Assembly: GCF_009766105.1 (NCBI RefSeq)
Contig: NZ_LMUH01000008.1
Location: forward strand, 5,814 to 69,813
Direction of reading: 5' to 3'
Source of the DNA: Granulicella sp. S156
GTDB lineage: Bacteria > Acidobacteriota > Terriglobia > Terriglobales > Acidobacteriaceae
DNA: 64,000 bases
Part shown: piece after piece, positions 1,995 through 42,660 of the stretch
Layout: the number at the start of each line of letters is the position of its first letter
Numbering within the stretch: position 1 is the first letter of the stretch
Program-made: the position numbers and the translations under genes
Notes under the pieces: generated by a model
Seen by the model: the letters and a program-made list of their open reading frames with translations, nothing else
Told to the model about the DNA's origin: nothing
Database searches by the model: none

Positions 1995-2303
1995 CTATTG
2001 TCCGTTGCGCAGAGCCGCTTCCAACGGCACAGCACCTGTTGCTGGAACGCGATGATCGCGCACCTCGCCAGGCCGGCTCTCGCCATGCAGACCGGAACGG
2101 CCACTTACTACCGTAGAGATCGCATGCTTGAAGATGAGCTGCTCCTGCGCATTGTTTTCCAACAGCACGGAGTATTTATCGAAGGAACGAATCTTGCCCG
2201 TAAGCTTGACTCCGCTGACTAGGTAGATGGTGATGGGGCTCTTGTCCTTGCGGACCGTATTCAGAAACGTGTCCTGAATGTTCTGTGCCGGCTTTGAATC
2301 CAT
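1995..2303 (-). CDS. hfq: RNA chaperone Hfq
   Basis: Hfq is a hexameric Sm-like protein that pairs small RNAs with mRNAs. The 102-residue protein begins with a short helix ([15 protein letters not shown]), then Sm1 ([15 protein letters not shown], with [13 protein letters not shown]) and Sm2 ([10 protein letters not shown]), matching the family YKHAI(S/T)T signature. A strong ribosome-binding site (AAAAGGAGAT) sits 8 nt upstream of the ATG. The C-terminal tail of about 35 residues (from SGRSG onward) is rich in Gly, Arg and Glu rather than carrying the short acidic tip known from E. coli. It is followed by hflX in the same orientation. The stop codon is in the same frame as hflX, 11 codons before the hflX start. 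Confidence 0.96.
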
Positions 2304-2331: not shown

Positions 2332-2442
2332 GAGCAGTTCGCCTATTCGACATAGGGCGAACCCTTGGTGTTGACACCGTTTTTCCTGAGGGAAAACGGC
2401 ACTTGCAGAACTCATTCGCTCTCACGAATAGAAGAACTGCTC
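2332..2442. repeat. Structured intergenic element, copy 1 of 2
   Basis: A 111-nt element lies upstream of hfq. The 5' arm 2332-2349 (GAGCAGTTCGCCTATTCG) pairs with the 3' arm 2425-2442 (CGAATAGAAGAACTGCTC) at 16 of 18 positions. Inside it, a GCGAA (about 2357-2361) can pair with a TTCGC (about 2415-2419). The core is a hairpin at 2377-2399 with arms CCGTTTT(T) and (G)AAAACGG around CCTGAGG. A second copy at 39753-39863 has the same length, core and TCGCTCT box, but a different, still complementary, distal stem. It could be a structured RNA or a small palindromic mobile repeat. The transcribed strand is unknown. Confidence 0.7.
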
Positions 2443-17722: not shown

Positions 17723-17895
17723 GTCAAGAAACTTTTTCACGGTGTGATTGAGACTCCTGGATTACCAGCTAACCGGAAGTTGAGTCTCAAGTGGCGAGAA
17801 CAGGCCAAAGCGCTTATCCATACGAACTCCCTCGGAGACGGAATGAGGCAGGATTGGGCGGCCGCAGAGGCCGAAGCAGTGGCCTGTCTCCTTCC

Positions 17896-21847: not shown

Positions 21848-21965
21848 TAGCGTTCGGTTGAAAAGGAACCAGCGGCATCACGGAGACAGAGCATTGGGGA
21901 CTCTTCGACTCCGCAACTCGCAAAGTATGCGAGTTGCTTCGCTCAGAATGACGGGCTTATAGAGG
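21848..21965. repeat. Dispersed ~118-nt intergenic repeat, copy 1
   Basis: This copy is similar along its length to 28191-28310. Both contain a GCGTTC-GGTTGAAAAGG segment near the left end and a nearly identical right part, CTTCGACTCCGCAACTCGC... to CTTCGCTCAGAATGACG. The right part holds a hairpin with perfect 9-bp arms GCAACTCGC/GCGAGTTGC (loop AAAGTAT). Confidence 0.7.
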
Positions 21966-28190: not shown

Positions 28191-28310
28191 CAAGCGTTCT
28201 GGTTGAAAAGGTACTGACGACATCGGTGAGGCAGAATGTTTCGGGGTTCTTCGACTCCGCAACTCGCAAAGTACGCGAGTCGCTTCGCTCAGAATGACGA
28301 ACTTATAGGG
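28191..28310. repeat. Dispersed ~118-nt intergenic repeat, copy 2
   Basis: This is the second copy of the repeat at 21848-21965, in the same orientation. The right half is nearly identical (CTTCGACTCCGCAACTCGC... to ...CTTCGCTCAGAATGACG). The hairpin is kept as GCAACTCGC/GCGAGTCGC, with one G-T pair. It sits in the gap between the convergent murJ and SnoaL-like genes. Confidence 0.7.
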
Positions 28311-28329
28311 GAATAAAAGCAGCTCTATT

Positions 28330-37112: not shown

Positions 37113-37165
37113 CCGTAGCCTAAAGCTACGGCCCCCTCCGTCTCCCTGACGCTAAAGCATCAGGG
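37113..37165. repeat. Paired TAAA-loop hairpins
   Basis: Two hairpins lie side by side: CCGTAGC-CTAAA-GCTACGG (37113-37131) and CCCTGACGC-TAAA-GCATCAGGG (37144-37165, one mismatch). The same pair occurs at 42556-42609 with different stem bases that still pair. Both pairs are followed by GCG/GCGCT-rich sequence. They lie just outside the MITE. The remaining sequence up to 37321 holds the spermidine-synthase-like gene's promoter region, with no clear boxes. Confidence 0.65.
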
Positions 37166-37321
37166 AACGCGATTCGCGCTGTGGTGAACAGGCCATCATC
37201 ATCGAACGAACAAATGACTCAGGATGCTAAAGCCTTTCTTCCAGATGTATAGTGTTGCTTGCCTTGCCCCGGAAGGATCACCGGAATCCAGCTTGCCACA
37301 AACCTGCTCATAAGGCCCTTC

Positions 37322-39373: not shown

Positions 39374-39936
39374 AGTGACTGCGCGATATCGGTATATAGA
39401 ACAGATCTCTCGAGAACGAGCGGCCTGAACCTCTGGAAGCAGCGCTCCAGGATAGTCCCACTCCTGGACGCGAGGTCGGCATGAAATAGGTTCGCGCTAA
39501 AGTGAGCAAAATGAGACAGACCGCGCTCATATCGGCGGAATACTATTCCTTCACTATGGATTCCCGAATCGGAACGTGGTTTCCACATCGGCACAATTCG
39601 AATGGGTCGTGGGATTCGATCTGCTCTGTATGTCTAGCTACTATCGCGACTGTGAAGGTTGAATCTGAACTGAGCTTTCGTGAACATACCCACGTCTGCG
39701 ATCCGAAGCGTCTACATCAATTCAGCGCAAAAACCCTGACAAGCGACTACTAGCGCAGTTTTCGTAATGCTGTTAAGCGGAAGGACCCTGCGAGTGTCGT
39801 TTTTCCTGGGGAAAAACGACGTAGATATCCTTGACTCGCTCTACACCATTACGAGAACTGCTCAAGCCGCACGATCAGGAACGCCTAAGCGGTGACAACT
39901 ATCTCAAAATCCACCACTACTGCACTTCCCGAATAA
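39374..39936. other. Intergenic region upstream of the TetR gene
   Basis: Apart from the structured element at 39753-39863, nothing is supported here. An open frame of 83 codons (39502-39753) has no ribosome-binding site and an unlikely composition. The last 70 nt are AT-rich and lead into the TetR promoter. Confidence 0.5.
39753..39863. repeat. Structured intergenic element, copy 2 of 2
   Basis: Outer arms GCGCAGTTTTCGTAATG (39753-39769) and CATTACGAGAACTGCTC (39847-39863) pair at 15 of 17 positions, plus one G-T. Inside, GCGAGT (39790-39795) pairs with ACTCGC (39834-39839). Directly within that is the core hairpin 39796-39820, with arms GTCGTTTTT/AAAAACGAC around CCTGGGG. Total length, core and the TCGCTCT box match the copy at 2332-2442. 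The distal stem bases differ but stay complementary. Confidence 0.7.
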
Positions 39937-39965
39937 TTGACTGTCCAGACGCTTATTAGTATATT
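39937..39965 (+). promoter_or_regulatory. Sigma-70-type promoter of the TetR gene
   Basis: TTGACT (39937-39942) and TATATT (39960-39965) are separated by exactly 17 nt, close to consensus. The expected transcription start is about 39972, directly at the GTG chosen as the start codon. Confidence 0.7.
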
Positions 39966-39972
39966 GGGTTGT

Positions 39973-40539
39973 GTGGCAAGGCCAAAGAGTGACGATAAGC
40001 GGAACGCTATTCTGGCGGCGGCGACCCGCGTGATCGTTACGCAAGGGCTGAGCGCCCCGACGGCGGTGATCGCGCGAGAAGCCGGCGTAGCGAATGGTTC
40101 CCTGTTCACTTACTTCGAGACCAAAACTGAGCTATTTAATCAGCTCTATCTTGATCTGAAAATCGGGATGGGGTCCGCTGTCCTGGAAGGGCTTCCGGCA
40201 GGGGGCGAGCTGCGGGAGCAGTTCTTTCACATCTGGTCCAATTGGATGAGATGGGCGGTGTCCAATCCTGAGAAGCGACGCGCGCTGGCGCAGCTCGGCG
40301 TCTCCGACGAGATCACACTCGAGAGCCGTGCCGCGGGGCATAAGGCCATGGCAGGCCTCCGAGATCTGCTGGAGCGGGGGCGTGCCCATGGTTCCCTGCG
40401 CGAAGCTTCCATGGGGTTTGTCCTCGCGATCATGAACTCGCTGGCGGAAGCAACGATGGATTTCATGGTGCAGGACCCCGCCAATGCGGACAAACACTGC
40501 AAGATTGGATTCGATGCCCTGTGGCGTGTATTTGGCTGA
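39973..40539 (+). CDS. TetR-family transcriptional regulator
   Basis: This 188-residue regulator has an N-terminal HTH of the TetR type: AILAAATRVIVTQGLSAPTAVIAREAGVANGSLFTYFETKTELFNQLY. A variable all-helical ligand-binding domain (about 60-188) follows. The frame opens at a TTG (39937) that is itself the -35 box of a near-consensus promoter. The GTG at 39973 (MARPKSDDKRN) is therefore chosen, and the mRNA is probably leaderless. It is followed 49 nt later by two short-chain dehydrogenase genes on the same strand, which are likely targets of its regulation. Confidence 0.88.
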   Translation: MARPKSDDKRNAILAAATRVIVTQGLSAPTAVIAREAGVANGSLFTYFETKTELFNQLYLDLKIGMGSAVLEGLPAGGELREQFFHIWSNWMRWAVSNPEKRRALAQLGVSDEITLESRAAGHKAMAGLRDLLERGRAHGSLREASMGFVLAIMNSLAEATMDFMVQDPANADKHCKIGFDALWRVFG

Positions 40540-42555: not shown

Positions 42556-42609
42556 CCGTAGCCTAAAGGCTACGGCTCCCTCCCGCCCCGCGACGCTAAA
42601 GCGTCGCGG
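42556..42609. repeat. Paired TAAA-loop hairpins, second locus
   Basis: CCGTAGCC-TAAA-GGCTACGG (42556-42575) and CCGCGACGC-TAAA-GCGTCGCGG (42588-42609) are perfect 8-bp and 9-bp-arm hairpins. The arrangement is the same as at 37113-37165 but the second stem differs, with compensatory changes. The pair is followed by GGTTTGCGCT. It lies between the second SDR gene and the ArsR promoter. Confidence 0.7.
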
Positions 42610-42660
42610 TTTGCGGTTTGCGCTATGTCTCGTCCGGCATTCCATTGTGTTAAATTTCTC

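Follow-up and report, generated by a model that had tools for sequence, protein, structure and literature searches.

In the available part of a published description (PMC2229807), the RUP element of Streptococcus pneumoniae, the Correia/NEMIS elements of Neisseria and the ERIC/IRU/RU-1 elements of enterobacteria are palindromic sequences of about 100-155 bp, with a long stem loop and TA ends, dispersed in their genomes. As far as the accessible parts of this literature go, an autonomous insertion sequence (IS) with the same ends is known for RUP only among TA-terminated bacterial MITEs. Contact with stop codons appears in the sections available as single cases: a copy of RU-1 at the 3′ end of a gene removed its stop codon (PMC2759123), and a copy of QMITE2 in Coxiella lies directly after one (PMC5896051). 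Our search of the open-access literature returned no paper on the element described here or on MITEs homing to stop codons.

The element resembles RUP, Correia/NEMIS and ERIC/IRU/RU-1 in size, palindromy, TA ends and dispersal. It differs from them in its hosts, in the diversity of its stems, with 58 different 11-nt cores in the 91 members and changes that come in pairs, and in its frequent exact contact with stop codons. The REP/REPIN sequences with their RAYT enzymes and the TIRYT/TIRtron repeats of Acidobacteria are likewise palindromic and present in many copies, but the element has a TA duplication and lacks linkage to a tyrosine transposase in the loci searched. IS elements of the same genus with a DUF4096 domain, which we take to be IS5-type, have G-initial ends as the element has, some of them GAGC, but their inner ends differ and the element is too short for a transposase. 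Integron attC sites are hairpins with conserved tips, conserved unpaired bases and drifting stems. This architecture resembles that of the element, which differs by its TA duplication and its scattered single copies.

Two copies in the window and a larger family

The window, the whole stretch of 64,000 nucleotides of Granulicella sp. S156 that was analysed, contains two copies of the element. Copy 1 (2332..2442, minus strand), which is diverged, lies between hfq (1995..2303, minus strand; Pfam Hfq) and a gene for a DegT-type aminotransferase whose nearest named relative is from G. mallensis (86% identity). Copy 2 (39753..39863, plus strand) is 94% identical to another host copy, L057, and has as its neighbour a gene for a TetR-type regulator (39979..40539, plus strand; Pfam). 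In the predicted folds, the 15-pair outer stem seen family-wide, which is also the terminal inverted repeat, is formed by 2332..2346 and 2428..2442 in copy 1 and by 39753..39767 and 39849..39863 in copy 2. The core hairpins, placed by fold and by a match to the core pattern, are at 2379..2397 and 39799..39817. Copy 2 is preceded by TA (39751..39752), probably one half of a target duplication, and is followed by AA.

The first-pass annotation had described a two-copy element of nearly constant length, with a shared core hairpin and long stems. The two copies are in fact both exactly 111 bases long and belong to one family. Their folding energies are −49.4 kcal/mol (z = −6.1) for copy 1 and −53.8 kcal/mol (z = −7.2) for copy 2, and none of 200 shuffles was equally stable. 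The reverse strands also fold (z = −4.1 and −7.4, respectively). The core hairpin pattern GTTTTTCCTGRGGRAAAAC, with up to 3 mismatches, matched only these copies in the window, on both strands of each, against a mean of 0.02 chance matches in shuffles. A covariance model of 91 members, both copies being in its training set, found only them in the window at E < 1e-6, with the runner-up at E = 0.06; in a training-free test, BLAST with copy 1 against its own genome hit other places at E = 1.7e-5 and 5.9e-5. The two copies had been aligned in the same sense. That alignment (62% identity) works because the element is nearly palindromic, but by model score the copies are opposite in orientation. The failure to recognise a named RNA family was borne out, as Rfam had nothing in the window at gathering thresholds; one further search was empty and another gave 3 matches far below threshold.

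The window contains other repeats: a 72-base direct repeat (21894-21965 and 28240-28311, 89% identical), 36-base repeats at 17891 and 21781 (94% identical), and a 62-base pair (37122-37183 and 42566-42627, 74% identical) whose hairpin-like cores differ between copies.

The count of two did not survive a genome-wide search. With a first covariance model built from seven host copies, the host genome gave 95 matches at E ≤ 1, of which 28 were the second strand of a listed place, leaving 67 distinct places. Further analysis used 65 of these, excluding L008 (partial) and L011 and including L118 and L119 despite E > 0.1, L119 being also a stop-codon copy. Their lengths were 106-114, with 33 of the 65 at exactly 111. 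Building such a model and searching acidobacterial genomes with it had been proposed at the outset, and the family was found well beyond the two places, with more copies in relatives. At E ≤ 0.01, the first model matched in 24 of 61 genomes: 21 of 28 in the genus (host included), 1 of 9 in other genera of the family, 2 of 14 in the order and 0 of 10 in the class. At E ≤ 1e-4, the wider model of 91 members matched in 46 of 399 genomes sampled from the class, 43 of the same family, one of another family of the order and two of another family of the class; at most nine candidates were scored per genome, copies per genome being lower bounds. Of the 29 copies from relatives that we analysed, three came from a single genome and the others were generally the best one or two that a genome offered, so that they are not a random sample; L046 and L048, at contig ends, were left out of them.

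Many subfamilies with different stems occur side by side in one genome. Three copies found at separate places of one relative (L120-L122) were identical, and we take them as a sign of recent movement there. In the host, partial copies of the element (L128, L129, L130, L133 and L137) have inside or beside them a second dispersed repeat, parts of which are palindromic (GGGTGCCCCATCTTCGGCGCG ... GGGCAGGAGCGGTCGGGCG, and variants).

Target sites, empty sites and stop codons

The element is short, multi-copy and dispersed, and is too short to encode a transposase. The outer stem that makes up its terminal inverted repeats is on average 93% paired, with at most one mismatch in 67 of the 91 members. 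Among the 65 host copies, TA flanked the left side in 47, the right side in 44 and both sides in 32. The majority target was gCTAGc and the preference (C/T)TA(A/G), or YTAR.

When 13 copies were queried in five relatives, clean empty sites were found at L066 and L081. At L066, the host reads CCTA, the element, TAGTG, while one relative reads CCTAGTG and another CCTGGTG. The site orthologous to L081 carries a single TA in two relatives. One TA in the empty relatives against two in the host shows that the element inserts with TA duplication. The place orthologous to copy 1, at hfq, is without the element in two relatives (about 81% identity). At the L062 site the relatives had other sequence. 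At the L068 site two relatives (L269, L270) carry an IS5-like end (GAGCGTGTCATC / GAGCGTGTCAGC) at the same TA, the end of this IS element reading GAGCGTGTC.

Target duplications had been set beforehand as counter-evidence to an RNA reading, and they are present, together with orthologous sites that have a single TA. The first-pass annotation had left the choice between selection on RNA structure and a palindromic mobile repeat. The dispersed copies, TA ends and empty sites support the latter, and the RNA reading has little to support it. The element is very probably mobile DNA of the non-autonomous kind, a palindromic MITE some 111 bp long. As read from the aligned genomes, it has many dispersed copies, TA ends that are preferably YTAR or CTAG, and orthologous element-free sites with one TA.

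Many copies touch the end of a gene exactly. Gene ends came from a simple caller whose training set was the window; it is crude and probably under-calls (298 genes in 464 kb). The commonest distance from a gene end to the element was −1, that is, the stop codon consists of TA and the first base of the element. This position was found in 26 of the 65 host copies and in 13 of the 29 copies from relatives, of which 26 entered the gene-end distance analysis. The codon at the edge in these 39 stop copies was TAG in 35, TAA in 3 and TGA in 1. Among the 27 copies whose far TA is intact, removal of the element in silico restored TAA or TAG in 26 and gave TAC in one; restoration was not assessable in the other 12 of the 39. 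In most cases, then, the neighbouring TA and the initial G of the element make up TAG, so that the gene end is retained. This works in either orientation, because both ends of the element begin with G.

Empty sites were also found for these copies. When 17 stop-codon copies were queried in two relatives, seven (L073, L083, L086, L088, L098, L100 and L112) had TAA or TAG, element-free, in at least one relative. At L098, a bare TAA stands in one relative, and in the other this stop codon is occupied by a copy from another subfamily, so that two independent insertions look to have occurred there. L108 was not counted as empty, the TAG of the relatives being one codon earlier, nor was L079, where the stop lay past the aligned part and in one relative only. 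Seven queried copies with an unresolved gene end were not counted either; among them is L115, with a weak element match beside the hit in one relative. In both relatives, the locus corresponding to L082 (L412 and L413) has TAA and then some 110 additional bases whose ends are element-like (model E = 0.78 in one). This 115-base hairpin, starting in the same stop codon, is perhaps a decayed older copy, and L082 was not counted as empty.

Stop codons make up 4.9% of non-coding TA sites, 12.2% of YTAR sites and 13.3% of CTAG sites in the 464 kb host background. The stop-codon excess over the YTAR value was significant in the host (P = 1.4e-8) and in the relatives (P = 1.4e-5). Within about 60 bp around gene ends, the share at the stop codon was predicted to be 25% by TA density and 43% by YTAR density, against 26 of 40 observed for the host and 11 of 22 for the relatives. 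That YTAR density already predicts 43%, with only 11 of 22 in the relatives, weighs against our preferred explanation in its stop-codon part. Among the non-coding CTAG sites in the window, 5 of 18 are stop codons. From the YTAR density near gene ends and this CTAG share, target-motif preference together with purging of harmful insertions may account for most of the stop-codon excess. YTAR would be common at stop codons, insertions inside genes and promoters would be purged, and insertions at stop codons would be nearly neutral, possibly with a modest further preference.

Orientation at stop codons was opposite in 16 and the same in 10 host copies; in relatives it was opposite in 4, the same in 7 and unassigned in 2. 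Among tandem host genes the element was opposite in 23 and the same in 9, but the general orientation bias that these genes suggested was not upheld at stop codons or in relatives.

Paired changes in the stems

The first reading of the two window copies had noticed stems that change together on both sides, and the family as a whole repeats this pattern. In a sequence alignment of the 91 members, standard pairs filled 86.5% of cells in the 35 pairs of the structure (shuffles, 72.0%), and two-sided changes numbered 478 (shuffles, 170); none of 500 shuffles reached the observed pairing or the observed number of two-sided changes. Sliding the pairing by 1-3 columns gave at most 56.4% paired and at most 148 two-sided changes. 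The structure was picked on the same alignment as was counted, which favours the counts, and orientations came from model R1, or by eye on the core loop for L043-L045, L047, L049 and L050; the counts therefore lean towards the structure. The outer stem and core agree, however, with those that RNAalifold had earlier predicted from seven copies.

Between distant copies, 41% of outer-stem pairs differ on both sides, and both copies are paired in 89% of these, while one-sided outer-stem differences level off near 14%. In the core of distant copies, pairing is kept in about 83% of two-sided differences. Close copies (≥90% identical) have mostly one-sided differences within a pair. From this contrast between close and distant copies, it seems that copies staying in place decay and that the stems are preserved in lineages that move. 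The 91 members have 58 different 11-nt stem cores. The whole element lies in one palindromic register (positions i and 112−i), yet its internal loop (27% paired) and middle (40% paired) are mostly unpaired across subfamilies, and some unpaired positions are conserved and non-palindromic, such as position 95, which is C in 82 of 91. The conserved unpaired positions and the paired changes fit recognition of the fold, or matching ends with conserved inner sites.

Recognition of the fold would mean that the element is read in a folded form, as an extruded or replication-exposed hairpin, through its GAGC tip, a 3×3 internal loop and the core loop, with stems that may drift as long as they pair; attC sites and the hairpins of IS200 and REP sequences would be the parallels. 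The paired two-sided differences between distant copies, the diversity of stem cores, the conserved non-palindromic unpaired positions and the coexistence of many subfamilies in a single genome where no partner is visible all point this way. However, the TA duplication and the IS5-like ends suit a DDE reaction on double-stranded DNA. IS200-type single-strand transposition leaves no duplication, in which the element differs, and no tyrosine transposase was found linked to it in the 30 loci searched. We regard reading of the folded form as possible but rather unlikely. We think it unlikely that two ideas hold jointly, namely that recognition of the element goes by its fold rather than by the sequence of its stems, and that its mover homes to stop codons, each end keeping G as its first base so that TA and G rebuild a TAG stop. 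If this were true, the tips and loops would be conserved and the stems would be free to change while pairing.

The paired changes could also come from mutation instead of selection, by hairpin-templated correction of imperfect palindromes at replication. Such correction would yield two-sided changes of the kind counted here, and the single palindromic register across the element agrees with it, but it should tend to erase the internal loop and the middle, which stay mostly unpaired. We hold this origin, too, to be somewhat improbable.

A functional structured RNA would explain the strong predicted structure and the paired changes, either as a regulator in cis or an sRNA, with hfq or the TetR gene as possible targets, or as an element at the 3′ end of transcripts. 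The stop-codon copies would then fall at the 3′ ends of messages, and the excess of opposite orientation between tandem host genes (23 against 9) could be read in its favour. The orientation at stop codons is mixed, however, and there is no Rfam family. Moreover, when the model was run on 26 hfq loci of other genomes in the genus, none of them contained the element. In loci around relatives of the aminotransferase, where the presence of hfq was not confirmed locus by locus, only 2 of 80 had the element, beyond the aminotransferase gene at a distance of 1.3-2.4 kb. A promoter-like site (39937-39965), itself weakly supported, lies between copy 2 and the TetR gene; 0.7 such sites are expected by chance. 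We consider an RNA role very unlikely, and rejected a regulator of hfq or TetR because the neighbourhood is not conserved. Most likely, hfq and the TetR gene are incidental neighbours.

Candidate movers and the nature of the element

In the host genome, no DDE_3 and no DUF4096 match was found; an IS630 partner was rejected for the absence of DDE_3 matches. Three DDE_Tnp_1 matches were present, and the one fetched (L216) has other ends. One relative (G002) has four DDE_Tnp_1 matches with identical scores (L217 and three more), to which L216 of the host is a similar match. Among 60 IS loci fetched (30 per family search, overlapping), eight distinct IS had placeable ends. All eight begin with G, 7 have TA on both sides and 6 lie in YTAR; DUF4096 was present in 6 of them, 5 with TA on both sides. 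A CTAG/YTAR target, TA duplication and G-initial ends define the IS5/IS427 group, and the element has these traits.

The likeness stops within the ends. Only the first 3-4 bases of the element are shared with the ends of the placed IS, and the inner ends differ. The IS5-type partners fetched were rejected, since their ends do not match, and an autonomous partner with the element's own ends was found nowhere among the IS loci covered by this partial search. Other inverted repeats in the same loci (e.g., L194/L222, L212 and L216) had no TA pattern. In one of the 60 loci (L179), a copy of the element lies about 160 bases past a short DUF4096 stretch. The end pattern TAGAGCAGTTCYCGTA, with up to 2 mismatches, gave 58 matches against 22 for a backward control. 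Of 16 unpaired places fetched, several were truncated copies or copies with another repeat inside, and others fitted neither description. At the perfect match, L123, where a gene that is presumably TonB-type ends, no transposase was recognised. Viral contigs gave no match to one strict end pattern.

An IS5-type DDE transposase would mobilise the element in trans. This is suggested by the target and the G start that some IS5-type elements of the genus share with it, and we give it an even chance. Against our explanation stand the lack of an own-ended autonomous partner, placed ends that match over at most 3-4 bases, and the coexistence of subfamilies with different stems, which is odd for a transposase that reads a fixed double-stranded end.

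That the element is of REP/REPIN type, with a RAYT or TIRYT tyrosine transposase as its mover, is extremely unlikely and was rejected. Y1 transposase genes do occur in 24 of the 31 genomes searched in the genus and order (not all were fetched), and the available part of one report records tyrosine transposases flanked by TIRs in Acidobacteria, G. mallensis among them (PMC3733652). However, the ends of the element lack GTAG, it has a TA duplication, and 30 Y1 loci (about 94 kb) contained no convincing copy, model R1 giving no match at E ≤ 1 and R2 only a 56-base match at E = 0.62.

The palindromic MITE described here is a new family of TA type in Acidobacteriaceae. It is unusual in the paired turnover of its stems at near-constant length and in its frequent position at stop codons. 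If this explanation is right, the family shows one way in which a transposable element builds up a high copy number in a compact genome at little cost; such spread is probable because the element often lands at a stop codon and rebuilds a working stop. Its dozens of stem variants with similar loops are a natural experiment for separating recognition of sequence from recognition of shape. For annotation, the family would explain many 111-base hairpins at the ends of Acidobacteriaceae genes, which could be mistaken for terminators or small RNAs.
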